DNA of 8,252 nt from positions 1 through 8,252 of the forward strand of contig JALOPK010000137.1 in NCBI GenBank assembly GCA_025453925.1. The letters are read 5' to 3'. How positions within the stretch are numbered: position 1 is the first letter of the stretch; each line of letters begins with the position of its first letter. Shown here in pieces: positions 754 to 8,015 of the stretch. Origin of the DNA: Candidatus Eiseniibacteriota bacterium. Lineage in GTDB: Bacteria; JAFGKV01. The notes beneath the pieces are model-generated. The model was given only the letters and a program-made list of their open reading frames with translations, ran no database searches and was not told where the DNA came from. The position numbers were made by a program, and so were the translations under genes.

Positions 754-3510
754 CTATCGGAGGATGATCAGCTCGCGGGGCGCCGCGGCGCCGGCTCGGC
801 ACACGTAGCTTCCCGCCGGCAGGGCCGACATGTCCATGACCACGCGGCTCAGCGAGGAGGCGCCGACAAGTAGAGCCGACGCCACCTCCCTCCCCGCGGC
901 GTCGTACATTCGGAAGGGCACCGAGTGGGCCCCAGTGGGAGACCAGAAGGTCACTGTTGCCTTGTCGCGAACGGGGTTGGGATGCATCCCCAGCCGCGCC
1001 ACACGCACCAGGGGAGTCTCCGCATCGGGGGAGTCGACGATTCCCCGCATCCAGGCCAGACAGCGTGACAGCAGCACATGCCGCGGCATGAAGCCCTGGG
1101 GCTGACTGGGTAGCCCGACACCCTCCAGGCCGAATCCGAGCAGAATGCGCCGGCCGCCGCCACCCTCGAATCTGATTCCCGCGACCTGCCCGGGCCCGTA
1201 TGACACGAACGTGAACTGCTCGACCCCAGGCGCTGATCCGGGGATCAGGATATCCTGCGAGCGCTGATTGTTGGCAGAGCCGAAGCCCGCGGTGCCGATG
1301 TGCGCGTAGGTCGCATTGAACGGATCCTCGGGGTCCAGATCGAGGATGTGATCAAAGCTGTTGCCGCCGAACGTGACGGGGAACATGTCGGCGAAGAACG
1401 GCTCCGTCGCGCCATACTCCACGGCGTTCTGCCCGCTGAGCAGCACGAGACCGCCACCGCCGCAGAAGGCCCGAAGGGTATCCTGCTCGGCCGGCTCCAG
1501 CGAGTTCTCCGCGGCCTCTCCGGTCAGCCAGATGACGGGCACCGACGGGAACTCGATAAGGTCCGAAGCCGCGGGAACACCGGCCGTCCACCGGTCCCAC
1601 CGCCGCGCCTCCAGCGCGAGGGAATCGCACGAGTCAAGGATGTAGCCCTCGATATCATCGCCATCGTCATCGTCCACCAGAACCACGTCGGCGATCCGGT
1701 CGAACACGATGAGCTCCTCCACCGACGTGCTGCCGACCGTGAGCGTCTCGGTCAGTTCGGGATATGGCAGCCTGGGGAGCACGCTGAGGGCGTACGAACC
1801 TCCCGGCAGGTCGAGGCGCCAACTGCCGTCGGCGGGGTCGGCCCATGTGGAGTCGTAGGGAGCGGGCAGTTGCCCGTCGCCCAGGTAGGCCGCCGCAACG
1901 TGACCCGGGATCGACCCGCCGGTGAGTGCCGAGAGCAGCCTTCCCTGCACACTCACCACGGGCAGAACATCGACGCTCAGCGACAGCGTGTCGTTCAGTG
2001 CGTTCACATCGCCCGTGCAGATGCTCGAGGCCTCCACATCGTGCGCCCCCGCTGCCGCGAGCGGCCAGACTGTTTCCACCGCAACGTTTTCTCCCTGCCC
2101 CACCGGGCCTGACCAGGCGACGGCGAGCTGGGCCCCGGCGGGGTCGACCAGCGCAACCGTCATGTGCGCATCACTCTGAGGGTTCCGGCCGAAGTTGGCG
2201 AACGTGCACTGCACGAGGAGCGAGTCACCGGCATGGAACGGCGGGCGGACCGCCTCGACCGAGAGCCGGAGTACGCCGACGTCCGTGTCGGGAAGATAGG
2301 CGCTGAGATTGTGCACGCCCATGAGCCACAGATAGGTGGACACCCATGTCATGTCTTCCGTTGGCGGATCCTGCGTGGTTGCCATGATGCCGCCATCATC
2401 GTCGGTGTCGTAGGAAAGGAGCGTGTCGGTCAACGCCTGGAAGTTGGCCCCGTATTGGCCGTTGTCGCTCAGCACATACATCGCGTGGTGGGCGTTGGCA
2501 TACGCCACGTTCCAGGAGTTGTCCCAATCGTAGCCGTCATCGGGAGCATTGCGCCACGGCTGAAAGGTGTCCACCAGGGGGCCGTATTCCTCAATCCAGG
2601 CGGTCCCCTGCTGCGGATCGGCGCGGAACTCTGAAGTGCAGACGCCCCACACCGCCGTTCCCGACGACATCGCCCACCGTTCTTCGCTCAACCTCGTCTG
2701 AGGATCGGCCTCGATCCACTCCCTCACCCGAGCGCCCATCCCGGCCGCGGTGTCCATCAGAGCGGCGCTCCCGACGGCCTCGCCGTAGAGATAGAGGTTC
2801 CCGGCCATCCACCCGGTGACGAACGGATTGATCCAGCGGGAGGATCCGGGAGCCGAGAAGGACATCGGATGCGCGACCATGTAGGCGGCGCAGGTGTCCG
2901 CATAGGCGGCGTGTGAAGCGTCCCCGTAGGCATCCTGGTAGGACGTCGTTGCCCAGAGACCCCAGGCGCAGTTGTGGTTGCGGTAGTAATCGTCCCCGGG
3001 ATCGCCTTCCTCCCGCCAGGCCGGGTAGCGCCAGCAGTAGCTCCATGCCCGCCGGATGTTCTCCCCGTAGCTCATCGTGTCGCCGAAGACCTGTGCGTAC
3101 TTGCTCCACGCAATGATGGCCTCAAGTGTATTGTCGGTCTGGATGACATCCGCCAACTCGCCTGCCTCGGCTTCGATCATGCCGCCGAAGTCCGGGCTTC
3201 CGGCGTCGTCTTCCTGCCATGCCTGGAGGAACGCGGCGATCTGACGGAGTTCGAAGAAGTAGTTGTAGTTCGTGGCGAACGCGTAGTCGCGCCCGCTCGG
3301 GCGGGCAATGGCGACGGACTGATTCACGTCCTCGCTCGGGCGGTAGCCCATGTCGCGGCCGCCCCTCAGCGACCATTCCAAGGGCGGAGTGGCGCCCGCT
3401 CCGCCGGGGTACGCGACCAGCAACGCGGCAAGGCCCGCGGCGCAGGCCCCGATGGACGCACGACGCAGAGCATTCATGTCGAGACTGATTCCGCCAGCGT
3501 GAGTGGGCAT
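754..3510 (-). CDS. Large secreted multidomain protein with C-terminal FlgD-Ig/T9SS-type sorting domain
   Basis: The 918-residue product looks exported; no enzymatic function can be assigned. Residues 1-40 are a signal peptide (Arg pair at 16-17, hydrophobic core 18-34, likely cleavage after Ala-Gly-Ala at 38-40). Residues about 45-405 are Trp/Tyr-rich and helical, with a YDTDDDGGI block at 367-375, resembling an alpha/alpha-toroid domain of the glycoside-hydrolase or cyclase kind. Residues about 410-515 look like a CARDB adhesion domain, about 519-603 like a carboxypeptidase-regulatory-like beta domain. Residues 608-825 open with VVLVDDDDGDD and contain a GGGGLVLLSGQ block (684-694), as in GATase/ThuA-like modules of secreted proteins. 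Residues 838-918 (GMHPNPVRDKATVTF, then MYDAAGREV, ending RELIILR) match FlgD-Ig/T9SS type A sorting tails. The ATG at 3510 is chosen because AGGAGGGAG lies just upstream; the ATG at 3477 has only a weak site. The likely role is a surface or extracellular binding or degradative protein. Confidence 0.85.
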   Translation of the reverse strand: MPTHAGGISLDMNALRRASIGACAAGLAALLVAYPGGAGATPPLEWSLRGGRDMGYRPSEDVNQSVAIARPSGRDYAFATNYNYFFELRQIAAFLQAWQEDDAGSPDFGGMIEAEAGELADVIQTDNTLEAIIAWSKYAQVFGDTMSYGENIRRAWSYCWRYPAWREEGDPGDDYYRNHNCAWGLWATTSYQDAYGDASHAAYADTCAAYMVAHPMSFSAPGSSRWINPFVTGWMAGNLYLYGEAVGSAALMDTAAGMGARVREWIEADPQTRLSEERWAMSSGTAVWGVCTSEFRADPQQGTAWIEEYGPLVDTFQPWRNAPDDGYDWDNSWNVAYANAHHAMYVLSDNGQYGANFQALTDTLLSYDTDDDGGIMATTQDPPTEDMTWVSTYLWLMGVHNLSAYLPDTDVGVLRLSVEAVRPPFHAGDSLLVQCTFANFGRNPQSDAHMTVALVDPAGAQLAVAWSGPVGQGENVAVETVWPLAAAGAHDVEASSICTGDVNALNDTLSLSVDVLPVVSVQGRLLSALTGGSIPGHVAAAYLGDGQLPAPYDSTWADPADGSWRLDLPGGSYALSVLPRLPYPELTETLTVGSTSVEELIVFDRIADVVLVDDDDGDDIEGYILDSCDSLALEARRWDRWTAGVPAASDLIEFPSVPVIWLTGEAAENSLEPAEQDTLRAFCGGGGLVLLSGQNAVEYGATEPFFADMFPVTFGGNSFDHILDLDPEDPFNATYAHIGTAGFGSANNQRSQDILIPGSAPGVEQFTFVSYGPGQVAGIRFEGGGGRRILLGFGLEGVGLPSQPQGFMPRHVLLSRCLAWMRGIVDSPDAETPLVRVARLGMHPNPVRDKATVTFWSPTGAHSVPFRMYDAAGREVASALLVGASSLSRVVMDMSALPAGSYVCRAGAAAPRELIILR

Positions 3511-3622: not shown

Positions 3623-4435
3623 TTACTGTCCAAGGATCAGCGGAAGCCCGTCCTTCCCCGCACCGACGACCACGATCTTGGTGTTCGGGCTGGCCGCCAA
3701 CTCCTTGGTGGCCTCTATGCCCTTCCAGCGCAGGATCAACTCATTGAGTCCCTTGTTCACGATCGTCTGGTAGTCGGCGATACCCTGGGCCTCGATCCGC
3801 TTCCGGTCAGCCTCCTGCCGCTCCTTGTCCAGGACGAACCGCATCTGCTCTGCCTGTTGTTCGGCTTCCAGCTTCCGCTCGATGGCGGTCGCCAGAATGG
3901 CGGGAAGCGTGATGCTCCGTAGGAGGAGGTTCTCCGCGCGAATGCCGCGTTCCTGAAGCTGGGGTATAAGGATGGTTTTGATCTGGCTGGCGATGGTGTC
4001 CCGGGCAGAGGTGTACAGCGCCTTGGCGTCGTATCCGGAGGTGACGCCCCGCACGGTGGACCGAAGCAGGGGCTCCACGACAACATCGACGTAGCCAGGG
4101 CCGATGGTCTTGTAGACCACCGGAGCCTGTTCCGCCTCGAGGCCGTAGAGGAGGGAAACATCGATCTTGACGACCAGCCCCTCTTTGGACGGCACGTCCA
4201 GCACCTCCTTGGCCTCCTGTGTCCGGATCGAGAGCTTGTGGATCTTCGCCAAGGGGTTGATCAGGTGCAGGCCCGCGGGCACCGGCGACGACGATATCGT
4301 GCCAAAGAGGTCTTTCACTCCCACGTGGCCAGCCGGCACGACCACGAGGCCCCTGAACAGCACCGTGCCAACTATCACCACGATCACCCAGAGCAGTGCG
4401 CCCCTGAAAGCCAGTCTCGGTCCGTACTGTGTCAT
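3623..4435 (-). CDS. Prohibitin/band 7 (SPFH) family membrane protein
   Basis: The 270-residue product is a typical prohibitin-family protein, which assembles into large rings or microdomain scaffolds in the inner membrane and in known cases (HflK/HflC, mitochondrial prohibitins) binds and restrains membrane proteases. A short cytoplasmic N-terminus is followed by one hydrophobic anchor (about residues 12-32). The SPFH domain follows (about 30-180): VVVPAGHVGVKDLFGTI, then PAGLHLINPLAKI, are family hallmarks. A charged coiled-coil stretch covers about 180-218 (IERKLEAEQQAEQ onward), and the tail KIVVVGAGKDGLPLIL is characteristic of bacterial prohibitin homologues. Length is normal for the family. 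The start at 4435 has AAAGGA 7 nt upstream. It lies 85 nt downstream of the zinc-ribbon gene on the same strand. Family is near certain; the partner protease is not shown by the sequence. Confidence 0.93.
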   Translation of the reverse strand: MTQYGPRLAFRGALLWVIVVIVGTVLFRGLVVVPAGHVGVKDLFGTISSSPVPAGLHLINPLAKIHKLSIRTQEAKEVLDVPSKEGLVVKIDVSLLYGLEAEQAPVVYKTIGPGYVDVVVEPLLRSTVRGVTSGYDAKALYTSARDTIASQIKTILIPQLQERGIRAENLLLRSITLPAILATAIERKLEAEQQAEQMRFVLDKERQEADRKRIEAQGIADYQTIVNKGLNELILRWKGIEATKELAASPNTKIVVVGAGKDGLPLILGQ

Positions 4436-4520: not shown

Positions 4521-5072
4521 TCAGGGACGTTCCGGCGTAGGTGGAGCATGCGGTGTTGCCAGACCCGTGCGCTCCAACCAACGCGCCATCCTGTCGACCA
4601 ATTCCGGATCGGCTCCCCCTCCGCTGACGGCGTGGGGCGCGAGAGCTGCCCCGCCTACGGCGTACATCAGCGACACGGCGAGGCCACCGACCGCCAGAAA
4701 CACGGCAACCGCCATCCCTCCGAAAGCGGCGACTCCGAGTGCGAGGCCGCCGATGGCCACGATGCCCGCGCTCACCCCTCCGAAGGTCAATCCTCCCAGC
4801 GCAACACCCCCCAACGCGACGACGCCGACGGCAACACTCCCGATGGCGAGGATGCCCCGCGCCACCCTCACGCGACCCGTCAGCGGATCGAGACCCTGCG
4901 CGACGTGAACCAGCGGCCACCCGAAGACCGAGGCCCTTGACCGGTACTCCAGACCAAACTCCGCCCCGGTACGCAAACGGGTGTCTCCCCCAGCAGAAAC
5001 GGCGGCTCCGCAGGAGGGGCAGCGGATTGCACTGTCGGGCATCATCGTCGAACAGACGGAGCAGGCTCTCAT
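4521..5072 (-). CDS. Zinc-ribbon protein with hydrophobic glycine pentad repeats
   Basis: The 183-residue protein has no function I can name. Residues 4-21 form a zinc ribbon, Cys-x2-Cys-x10-Cys-x2-Cys (C4, C7, C18, C21). Residues 43-72 carry the conserved-looking segment YRSRASVFGWPLVHVAQG followed by LDPLTGRVRVARG, which I have seen preceding such repeats in environmental proteins, though I recall no family name. Residues 73-144 are a repeat of G-x-h-A-h pentads with no charged residue. The tail (145-183) is soluble and helical (DPELVDRMARWLER). Starts possible are ATG 5072 and TTG 5093; I prefer the ATG, which places the zinc ribbon at the very N-terminus, although no Shine-Dalgarno site is visible. 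It follows pmbA by 64 nt. The repeat region could be a membrane-inserted segment or a beta-solenoid; see the repeat entry. That this is a real gene is well supported by the Cys pattern and repeat. Confidence 0.85.
   Translation of the reverse strand: MRACSVCSTMMPDSAIRCPSCGAAVSAGGDTRLRTGAEFGLEYRSRASVFGWPLVHVAQGLDPLTGRVRVARGILAIGSVAVGVVALGGVALGGLTFGGVSAGIVAIGGLALGVAAFGGMAVAVFLAVGGLAVSLMYAVGGAALAPHAVSGGGADPELVDRMARWLERTGLATPHAPPTPERP
4641..4856 (-). repeat. Protein-level pentad repeat, about 14 units of 15 nt
   Basis: Codons 73-144 of the zinc-ribbon gene encode pentads of the form G-x-(V/L/I)-A-(hydrophobic). Gly falls exactly every five residues at 73, 78, 83, 88, 93, 98, 103, 108, 113 and 118. 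After two single-residue insertions the pattern resumes at 129 and 140. The DNA units differ in wobble positions, so the repeat is kept at protein level rather than being a recent tandem duplication. Confidence 0.8.
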
Positions 5073-5140
5073 GCTTGGAGACCGGGAAGACAAGGCCCAA
5101 CGCCGGCCTGGGCACGGAAGCAGCGCGGCTCCGCCCTCAT
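5069..5140 (-). CDS. Possible 23-codon bridging ORF between pmbA and the zinc-ribbon gene
   Basis: An ATG at 5140 overlaps the pmbA stop as ATGA (5137-5140). The frame runs 23 codons and ends in a TGA that overlaps the ATG of the zinc-ribbon gene, again as ATGA (5069-5072). The peptide begins MRAEPRCFRAQAG. There is no strong Shine-Dalgarno site before either ATG, so a translational relay by termination-reinitiation is conceivable. The peptide itself has no recognisable motif and the arrangement may be chance; treat it as a candidate coupling element rather than a functional peptide. Confidence 0.25.
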   Translation of the reverse strand: MRAEPRCFRAQAGVGPCLPGLQA

Positions 5141-6510
5141 GTTCCCGACACCGCCATCTCGGCGATCCGGAAGGTCGGCGTGGCGATGGTTCCCGTCACC
5201 CGCAGGTCATTGCCGACCATGTCCACGGCGGCCAGCATCTCACGGATCGTTCCCGCGACGGTGATCCCCCGCACGGGGTGTGCGCGCGCACCCTTCTCGA
5301 TCCAGATGCCCATGGCGGCGGAGGAGAAAACGTCGTTGGCGGGCGAGAGGTTGAGCCACCAACCGGAGAGGTTCGTGACCAGAAGGCCTCGATCCGTCGC
5401 CGCGATGATCGCCTCGGGATCGAGGCTCCCGGGTTCCATGAGCAGGTTCGAGATCCCCACCTCGGGCGCCGCGGCATAAGAATCCCGAACCGCGTGTCCC
5501 CCCGGCTCGACACCGAGCTTCGATGCGCTCACCCGGTCGCTGAGGTACCCGTTGAGGATACCCTTGCCCACCAAGACCTGATCACGGGTGGGAGTCCCTT
5601 CGGCATCGAATGAACGGTGGTCGGGGCCGCGGAGGTCGTGAGGCAGATCGCTGATGGTCACGAGCGGCGAGGCGACGGCGGATCCGACTCGACCCGCGAG
5701 ATACGATCGCTGGAGCACCACCTGGTCGGCGCGAAGCGCCTGCGTCAGCCAGACCATCAACGTCCACCCCATCCAAGGCGGGAAGATCACCGGCACCCTG
5801 CACGACGGGACCTGGCGCGCGCCGAGGAGCATCGCGGCACGCTCACCCGCGGTGGTGCCCACCCAGGCAGGCTCGGGGAGCCTGCTTCTCGCGGGGACCC
5901 CGACGTAGCACGATCCGGTGGTCTGCTGGCCATCCCGTTCGGCAATGGCTTCTGCTTCGATGGTGATACCGCAAAACGGCTCCGCGAGGGCCAATCCGCG
6001 AGAGTTGGCGAACGCGACGAAAGCGTCGCGCTGGGTCCATTTGACGGACACCGGTTCGGTGACCCCCGGCACCGATGCCATGTTTCGCTCCACCTCCACG
6101 AGCCAGGAGGCCTTCTCGCCCAGCGGCTGACGCGCCAGCTCCGGGTCCTGGGGCGCGTGGGCCTTCACTGAAACCAAAGGAGCGAGACTGAGCGGGTCGG
6201 CGGCGGGGGGAACGCTTCGCGCGATCTCGATGGCCTTTGCCGCCAAGCCCTTCAGTGCCGCGGGTGACAGATCAGTGGTGTGCACCAACGCCTGGCGGCG
6301 GTCGAGCTGCACCCTGAGACCAAGCCCCCTGGTCAGGGCCTGCTGCAGGTGTTCGACCGTTCCACGGCGCACTTCGAGCTGCAGTTCCGAAGCCGTGCGC
6401 GCGTACGCATCAGAGGCATCTGCGCCCGCCGAGCGAGCCGCTTCCACGGCGCGGGAAGCTGCCTCCGCCGCCGGCTGGCTGTCGTGGAGACGGGGAGATG
6501 CGCCGGTCAT
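5137..6510 (-). CDS. pmbA: PmbA/TldE, non-catalytic partner of the TldD/E metallopeptidase
   Basis: The 457-residue product is the TldE/PmbA subunit. In E. coli it forms a heterodimer with TldD that clips unfolded peptides, matures microcin B17 and degrades the antitoxin CcdA. The fold's segments are in order: an N-terminal domain (residues 1-110, EVRRGTVEHLQQALTRGLGLRV at 46-67), a central strand-rich part, VPVIFPPWMGWTL at 239-251 where TldD has its zinc helix, then RSFDAEGTP (299-307), GILNGYLSDRVSASKLG (317-333), and GITVAGTIREM to the end. No HExxxH is present, as expected for TldE. The ATG at 6510 is chosen over the upstream in-frame start at 6606 because it overlaps the tldD stop as ATGA and has GGGAGGT 5 nt upstream. 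The chosen N-terminus (MTGASPRLHDSQ) has no Tat or Sec signal, and neither does the longer alternative, unlike its TldD partner. Confidence 0.93.
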   Translation of the reverse strand: MTGASPRLHDSQPAAEAASRAVEAARSAGADASDAYARTASELQLEVRRGTVEHLQQALTRGLGLRVQLDRRQALVHTTDLSPAALKGLAAKAIEIARSVPPAADPLSLAPLVSVKAHAPQDPELARQPLGEKASWLVEVERNMASVPGVTEPVSVKWTQRDAFVAFANSRGLALAEPFCGITIEAEAIAERDGQQTTGSCYVGVPARSRLPEPAWVGTTAGERAAMLLGARQVPSCRVPVIFPPWMGWTLMVWLTQALRADQVVLQRSYLAGRVGSAVASPLVTISDLPHDLRGPDHRSFDAEGTPTRDQVLVGKGILNGYLSDRVSASKLGVEPGGHAVRDSYAAAPEVGISNLLMEPGSLDPEAIIAATDRGLLVTNLSGWWLNLSPANDVFSSAAMGIWIEKGARAHPVRGITVAGTIREMLAAVDMVGNDLRVTGTIATPTFRIAEMAVSGT

Positions 6511-6522
6511 GCCGTACCTCCC
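6507..6522 (-). promoter_or_regulatory. tldD/pmbA translational coupling site (ATGA overlap plus ribosome binding site)
   Basis: The tldD TGA and the pmbA ATG share ATGA at 6507-6510. The Shine-Dalgarno GGGAGGT (6516-6522, minus strand) lies inside the last tldD codons, 5 nt before the ATG. This arrangement favours equal synthesis of the two subunits. Confidence 0.8.
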
Positions 6523-8003
6523 ACAGTCATGCGGGAGATCCGCAGGGTCGGGCATGCGCTGGTCACCGGCGCCGACTGATCGCTTTTGCCGCATGTCCCC
6601 GGCCACGATGCGAAATCGGTCCCGACGCGATCGATCCGCTCCAGCACCTCGACACCGGATCCCACGAGACTGGCGCCTCGGAGCGGGGCGCCGATCGAGC
6701 CGTTCTCGATGAGATACGCCTCCATCAAACCGAACGTAAACTGACCGCTGGCGGTGTCCACTTCACCGCCGCCGAAGGCCACCGCATAGATCCCGCGGGC
6801 GGTGTCTTTGATGATGTCGGCCGGGTCGTCCGCGCCGGGAGCGAGAAACGTGTTGCTCATCCGGACCAGGGGGGGAAATCTGAACGACTCGCGGCGTCCG
6901 TTGCCGGTGGACACGCACCCCATCGCCCGGGCCGACCGCCGGTCGTGGAGGTAGCCCACCAGTCCTCCCCGCTCCACCAGGAGGGTCCGCTCGGCAGGCG
7001 TCCCTTCATCGTCCACATTGAAACTCCCGCGTTCGCCCGCCAGGGTGCCGTCATCGTAGATGGTGACCAGATCGGACGCTACCCGCTGGCCGACCCGGCC
7101 GGCGAACACCGAGGCATTCCTCATTACTGCGTCTGCTTCGAGCCCATGGCCGATGGCCTCGTGAAACAGCACGCCACCGCCTGCGGCCACCACCACCGGC
7201 ATCTCGCCTGAGGGCGCGGGGACCGCGTCCAGCATTCGGACCGCCTGGGCCGCGGCCGCGGAGCCGATGCGCTCCGGGGTATCCACTTCGAACACTTCCA
7301 TTCCGGCCCTGCGTGAAGTCCGGCTCAGACCCTCCGCGTTGCTCCCGTCGCGCACAGCGGTGACAGTCGCCCTGACCGAAACCATGGGGAGCACATCACG
7401 CAGGAGCTCTCCGGTGGATGTTGCGATCAGAATATGCTGCACCTCGTCGTGATAGCTGACGACCACCTGTTGCACGGCACCATCAACCGCCCTGGCCGCA
7501 CGGTCGATCCGTTCCACCAACGCCACCTTGTCTCGGATCGGTGCTTCCTCCAAATGCTCGCGCATCGGAATCCGGGATGGAATCCGCTGGAGGATCACCC
7601 CGGCCGGAACGGCGATAGTGCCCTCCGCCAGGGATGCGGCGACGTCCGCGATCGGTGCAAGTTCGCCGGCATCCAGGGTTTCCGCGTATCCGTACCCGGT
7701 CTTCTCACCGTGGAGAGTGCGAACCCCTCCCCCCTGCGTGAGACCATACTCCAAAGCCCGGATCTCGCTGGAGGCCATGGTAATCCGTGTCACCGAGCGC
7801 GACTCCATGAACACATCGGCATACCAGCCGCCCCGGGCGAGCGCGCGTGTGAGCAGCGGCATCAGTGACTCCCCGTCCGGAAACGCGGGATCCACGTGGA
7901 CGGGATCCGCCCATACCCTGACCAGCCCGCTCATGGGAAGGGCAAGGGCCGCGGCGGAACTTCCTTTCAGAAATGTTCGACGAGAAATGGCTCGGGTGAG
8001 CAT
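6507..8003 (-). CDS. tldD: TldD zinc metallopeptidase with twin-arginine signal peptide
   Basis: The 498-residue product is the catalytic subunit of the TldD/E peptidase. The zinc site is intact: H281-E282 and H286 in LFHEAIGHGLEAD, plus C471 in GTCGKSDQSAP, matching the His-His-Cys ligand set known for E. coli TldD. Other family blocks are present: DDGTLAGERGSFNVDDEGTP (317-336), GLVGYLHDRRSA (347-358), RFPPLVRMSNTFLAPG (375-390), and the closing LRISRMTVGG. The N-terminus is unusual for the well-studied cytoplasmic enzymes: SRRTFLKG at 7-14 is a near-perfect Tat motif, followed by a hydrophobic Ala/Leu stretch (15-29) and a plausible cleavage site after V-W-A at residue 32. The ATG at 8003 is chosen over the upstream in-frame start at 8240 because GAGGAG lies 6 nt before it and it places the Tat motif at the N-terminus. 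It leads the minus-strand gene block and overlaps pmbA. Confidence 0.95.
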   Translation of the reverse strand: MLTRAISRRTFLKGSSAAALALPMSGLVRVWADPVHVDPAFPDGESLMPLLTRALARGGWYADVFMESRSVTRITMASSEIRALEYGLTQGGGVRTLHGEKTGYGYAETLDAGELAPIADVAASLAEGTIAVPAGVILQRIPSRIPMREHLEEAPIRDKVALVERIDRAARAVDGAVQQVVVSYHDEVQHILIATSTGELLRDVLPMVSVRATVTAVRDGSNAEGLSRTSRRAGMEVFEVDTPERIGSAAAAQAVRMLDAVPAPSGEMPVVVAAGGGVLFHEAIGHGLEADAVMRNASVFAGRVGQRVASDLVTIYDDGTLAGERGSFNVDDEGTPAERTLLVERGGLVGYLHDRRSARAMGCVSTGNGRRESFRFPPLVRMSNTFLAPGADDPADIIKDTARGIYAVAFGGGEVDTASGQFTFGLMEAYLIENGSIGAPLRGASLVGSGVEVLERIDRVGTDFASWPGTCGKSDQSAPVTSACPTLRISRMTVGGTA

Positions 8004-8009
8004 GAAGGA

Positions 8010-8015
8010 CTCCTC
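8010..8015 (-). promoter_or_regulatory. Ribosome binding site of tldD
   Basis: The minus strand reads GAGGAG 6 nt before the ATG at 8003. It fixes the start that gives the Tat signal peptide. Confidence 0.75.

Follow-up and report, generated by a model that had tools for sequence, protein, structure and literature searches.

A twin-arginine signal on TldD and none on its PmbA partner: probable export of a zinc peptidase pair with a single tag

The window, i.e. the whole 8,252 nucleotide stretch analysed here (contig JALOPK010000137.1 of a Candidatus Eiseniibacteriota bacterium), carries a tldD gene whose product begins with a twin-arginine translocation (Tat) signal and, directly downstream, a pmbA gene whose product carries no export signal. 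This split arrangement recurs in many lineages of bacteria. The best reading, with a probability of roughly 0.77 in our estimation, is that TldD and PmbA assemble in the cytoplasm as a zinc heterodimer, leave the cell together by the Tat pathway and trim peptides outside the cytoplasm. Features of the two genes are shown in Table 1.

Table 1. Features of the tldD/pmbA pair, in window positions
Feature	Position	Strand	Evidence or remark
tldD gene (498 aa; zinc metallopeptidase subunit, Tat signal at the N-terminus)	6507..8003	-	Pfam, NCBIfam, PDB, AF2, Foldseek; start ATG at 8003, stop TGA at 6507-6509
tldD ribosome-binding site GAGGAG	8010..8015	-	sequence; 6-nt spacer to ATG
Tat signal peptide (residues 1-32), with V-W-A ahead of the predicted cleavage	7908..8003	-	TIGR01409, low-pLDDT tail, conserved R-R-x-F
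Twin-arginine motif S-R-R-T-F-L-K, residues 7-13	7965..7985	-	sequence, alignments
Hydrophobic h-region, residues 15-28	7920..7961	-	sequence; maximum 11-residue Kyte-Doolittle 1.83
HEAIGH zinc motif (H281, E282, H286)	7146..7163	-	invariant; equals E. coli H262/E263/H267 (PMC5810440)
C471, third metal ligand	6591..6593	-	invariant; equals E. coli C454
ATGA stop/start overlap of tldD and pmbA, translational coupling	6507..6510	-	sequence
pmbA ribosome-binding site GGGAGG	6517..6522	-	sequence
pmbA/tldE gene, 457 aa, without export signal, non-catalytic partner (no HExxxH)	5137..6510	-	Pfam, PDB, signal scans; start ATG at 6510, within the ATGA overlap with tldD; gene end at 5137

The window TldD matches Pfam PF01523, PF19290 and PF19289, all over cut-off. 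Its best NCBIfam match is PRK10735 with 364 bits, which is below the equivalog cut-off of 513, and the protein is therefore classed only as a member of the TldD-type family and not as the E. coli equivalog. Sequence alignment with E. coli TldD (PDB 5nj5) gives an E-value = 3.5e-99. The AF2 model has a mean pLDDT of 91.8 and displays a low-pLDDT tail at approximately residues 1–40 ahead of a confident fold. A Foldseek comparison of the model with E. coli TldD gives an E-value = 9e-59, and the 5nj5 match shows a TM of 0.9 over the whole fold. Thus, as modelled, the tag is a flexible extension that precedes an intact TldD fold. Residues H281, E282, H286 and C471 are invariant in an alignment of 43 sequences; E. 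coli TldD has the metal ligands H262, H267 and C454 and the catalytic glutamate E263 (PMC5810440). A first-pass annotation of this DNA had described a complete zinc site (H281, H286, C471) and a tldD start set by GAGGAG, and both stand.

The N-terminus of TldD is MLTRAISRRTFLKGSSAAALALPMSGLVRVWA followed by DP, with the predicted cleavage between the two. An N-terminal S/T-R-R-x-F-L-K sequence, an h-region and a cleavage site, as in Tat substrates, are all present. The NCBIfam Tat signal model TIGR01409 (cut-off 16.7) gives the whole protein 20.1 bits and the isolated N-terminus 25.6, while Pfam TAT_signal scores 19.1, slightly below its cut-off of 22.7. Signal calls here and below are based on HMMs, hydrophobicity scans and conservation. 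The TldD orthologue of G002, which belongs to the same family but a different genus, is 60% identical; it keeps SRRSFLKG in an otherwise different leader, and the PmbA beside it is untagged as well. Across 17 homologues R8, R9 and F11 never vary, although the rest of the signal has diverged. The twin-arginine signal thus does not appear to be due to chance. The source genome encodes TatC (G000:C226) and TatA (G000:C18). The earlier assignment of a Tat signal, for which a predictor run and a check for tatA/tatC had been proposed, is borne out by the TIGR01409 match and by the presence of both genes.

PmbA also matches PF01523, PF19290 and PF19289 over cut-off, and aligns with E. coli PmbA (PDB 5nj5_B) with an E-value = 3.7e-36. 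A scan of the sequence for the HExxxH motif gave no match. No export signal is found whether the protein is read from ATG 6510 or from GTG 6606, in agreement with the first-pass annotation, which placed the pmbA start at the ATGA overlap and saw no signal in either N-terminus. A Band_7/SPFH membrane protein (window 3623-4435) and a zinc-ribbon protein (window 4521-5093) are encoded beyond pmbA, likewise on the minus strand. Also on the minus strand, at window 754-3510, is a protein of 918 aa, predicted to be secreted, whose C-terminus weakly matches a T9SS-type sorting domain (Por_Secre_tail, below cut-off).

A three-sequence TldD profile was used to survey first 145 and then 386 genomes spread across the bacterial domain, many of them fragmented; 37 named loci were added, as were seven genomes from a single tagged phylum. 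Around G104 and G132, searches at phylum level yielded few genomes. A Tat signal is present on 17 of the 154 distinct TldD cores, and the 17 come mostly from different families across the domain (window, G002, G104, a WOR-3 genome (L014), G153, G037, G145, G148, G149, G150, G338, G057, G081, G047, G093, G252 and G060). The R-R-x-F motif is invariant in all 17 and TIGR01409 matches 13 of them. In the other cores, approximately 137, the Tat heuristic gave only two matches, both of them read-through upstream of a plausible start. Apparent Tat signals on the TldD of L177 and L044 and on the PmbA of L129 and L058 were rejected, the RR being either upstream of a plausible start or running into helix 1. 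G283 and G298, which gave low-position alignments, turned out to be untagged.

A same-strand PmbA is found downstream of every Tat-tagged TldD, directly so in 16 cases; in G057 a gap of ~0.4 kb separates the two genes. None of the 17 PmbA partners shows a Tat or Sec signal, which is the outcome of the survey that had been proposed for PmbA proteins beside tagged TldDs. The longest non-polar run within the first 40 residues of these partner PmbAs is 8, versus 10–15 in the six Tat leaders measured. TldD and PmbA distances co-vary in the Tat pairs (Mantel r = 0.85). In G149 the PmbA beside the tagged TldD is split over two open frames (L122 5519-6145 and 4788-5639), by a frameshift or an assembly error. 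TatC was found in 15 of the 15 other tagged genomes searched, the WOR-3 genome being left out, but TatC is common anyway. G148, G149 and G150 have two TatC genes each. Open reading frame listings around the 17 loci show no obvious common neighbour gene and no obvious RiPP precursor from which a substrate could be named.

An adjacent PmbA is present for 16 of 17 tagged TldDs versus 55 of 134 others (Fisher p = 3e-5 on raw counts), an excess that is not significant once relatedness is controlled, as there are too few independent pairs. On the best TldD tree the Tat label needs 8 changes, or a smaller number when the count is limited to supported branches, and so the tag, judged from the tree, is one that was gained or lost several times. 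Untagged TldDs also occur inside tagged groups. Together with the changing label, this suggests that export is not essential to the TldD fold.

Two controls within the superfamily favour piggyback export. The first is a distant subfamily with predicted Sec export, of which the window genome itself encodes a TldD/PmbA-like pair (C408). The Sec pathway threads unfolded chains, whereas the Tat pathway moves folded complexes. A signal is then predicted on each chain in the Sec case and one signal is enough in the Tat case, and this is the pattern observed: Sec-like signals are found on both subunits in six of six Sec-type two-gene pairs (G000, G132, G117, G392, G393, G398), a small sample with four of the six from one group. 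In addition, L150 (G071:C52:1-2973, minus strand) displays a Sec-type TldD-like and PmbA-like sequence fused in one open frame with only one Sec-like signal in front; the frame is truncated at the end of the contig. Lone Sec-tagged TldD-like proteins with no detected adjacent partner are found in several genomes.

The second control consists of five genomes (G047, G060, G093, G338 and G148, the last only 84% complete) in which the search for PF19289 proteins found just two, the Tat-tagged TldD and its PmbA. A PmbA kept inside these cells would face no cytoplasmic TldD to bind. The window genome, by comparison, shows 12 PF19289 stretches, corresponding to six or seven TldD/PmbA-type loci, with a Tat tag only on the window pair.

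For the window pair we infer heterodimerisation, actual co-export, signal cleavage and a substrate role, in the following order. With their genes coupled, TldD and PmbA would be synthesised next to each other; still in the cytoplasm, they would fold, take up zinc and join as a hollow heterodimer. The flexible Tat signal of TldD would then carry the whole dimer through TatABC, with PmbA crossing as a hitchhiker that needs no signal of its own, and the signal would be cleaved between V-W-A and D. Beyond the inner membrane the dimer would act as a metallopeptidase with a closed chamber, open only to unfolded N-termini of peptides, and its most likely task would be to trim or scavenge peptides that have been exported. 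This substrate role, with entry through the same narrow channel, is drawn from the structure of the E. coli enzyme and is the weakest and least certain step of the proposal. That TldD would be exported as an assembled dimer is suggested by E. coli, where TldD is proteolytic only together with TldE, and by the precedent of HybOC and PaoABC, in which the untagged subunit leaves with the tagged one and the tagged one may await its partners (PMC5810440; PMC4273604). Hitchhiker export by Tat is an experimentally established mode (PMC4273604; PMC10924467). The one-tag design in 17 genomes of many unrelated lineages also points to both halves probably being exported as one folded unit.

A variant that keeps co-export, and whose likelihood overlaps with that of the reading above, has the Tat signal stay on as an anchor, either uncleaved or lipidated, that keeps the dimer attached to the inner membrane on its outer face instead of releasing it. 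The G093 TldD (L090) has a lipobox-like LPGC after the Tat h-region and may be a Tat lipoprotein, and several tagged signals have no clear A-x-A. However, several others do have A-x-A and the window TldD has V-W-A ahead of D, and the anchor appears the less probable form, with perhaps a minority chance of being correct.

The possibility that TldD alone is exported, acting outside as a homodimer or with some other partner while PmbA has a role of its own in the cytoplasm, appears unlikely. The lone Sec-tagged TldD-like proteins agree with it, as does the active TldD homodimer reported from Sulfolobus (discussed in PMC5810440). PmbA homodimers are known in other species (3tv9, 1vl4), which counts against co-export in that PmbA may then stay in the cytoplasm. 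But in E. coli TldD without its partner is inactive, and the TldD homodimer is too unstable for purification (PMC5810440), and export of TldD alone accounts poorly for the PmbA gene kept beside each tagged TldD and for the five genomes where PmbA would be left without a cytoplasmic TldD. That the Tat-like N-terminus is unused, decayed or coincidental, the pair being cytoplasmic like E. coli TldD/E, is very improbable: the Pfam model falls short of its gathering score and close untagged relatives exist, but a textbook RRxFLK with h-region and AxA-like site stands behind a strong ribosome-binding site, TIGR01409 is over cut-off, the R-R-F residues persist across 17 otherwise diverged signals, and Tat genes are present.

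Export of the preassembled dimer by Tat hitchhiking thus appears to be the preferred reading for the window pair. The first-pass annotation had inferred such joint export, and those of its proposed checks that were run all agree with it. It is also reasonably likely, with somewhat less confidence, that the tagged pairs form a cross-phylum class of extracytoplasmic, non-redox TldD/E peptidases that leave by Tat hitchhiking once assembled as zinc heterodimers, with more than one origin and the tag always on the catalytic TldD, in contrast to Sec relatives that need two tags. If so, a zinc peptidase with one tag in unrelated lineages would make Tat hitchhiking a general answer to the export of preassembled heterodimers, and a protease family regarded as cytoplasmic would sit outside the cell membrane in many bacteria, with a changed range of possible substrates. 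One tag with Tat and two tags with Sec within one superfamily offers a simple comparative test of folded versus unfolded export.

By common understanding, the TldD of E. coli works in the cytoplasm and has no export signal. The window pair resembles the E. coli TldD/TldE (PmbA) microcin-processing metalloprotease (5nj5) in its three domains, in a zinc site of HExxxH and Cys that is confined to TldD and in the non-catalytic partner, but differs in the Tat tag and in having adjacent, translationally coupled genes. The Sec-exported TldD/PmbA-like pairs (G000:C408, G132:C4) share the superfamily, predicted export and a two-gene arrangement with the window pair, but carry a Sec signal on each subunit, or are fused, and are far in sequence from TldD proper. 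With Tat hitchhikers such as hydrogenase-2 HybOC, PaoABC and the formate dehydrogenases, the window pair shares one tagged subunit and an untagged partner encoded alongside; for HybOC and PaoABC, cytoplasmic assembly precedes export (PMC4273604). These hitchhikers are redox enzymes, bear Ni-Fe, Fe-S or Mo cofactors and have proofreading chaperones, whereas the window pair is a zinc peptidase, and no proofreading chaperone gene of the hitchhiker type was recognised near it. To our knowledge, the characterised hitchhiker exports are all cofactor-bearing redox enzymes. A search of partial coverage, confined to the literature, gave no paper dealing with a Tat signal on either TldD or PmbA; TldD and twin-arginine are found together in one environmental genomics paper, where the terms occur only two and one times. 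TldD/E and Tat hitchhiking are each known already, and Tat hitchhiking of a non-redox TldD/E pair would be a new variant.
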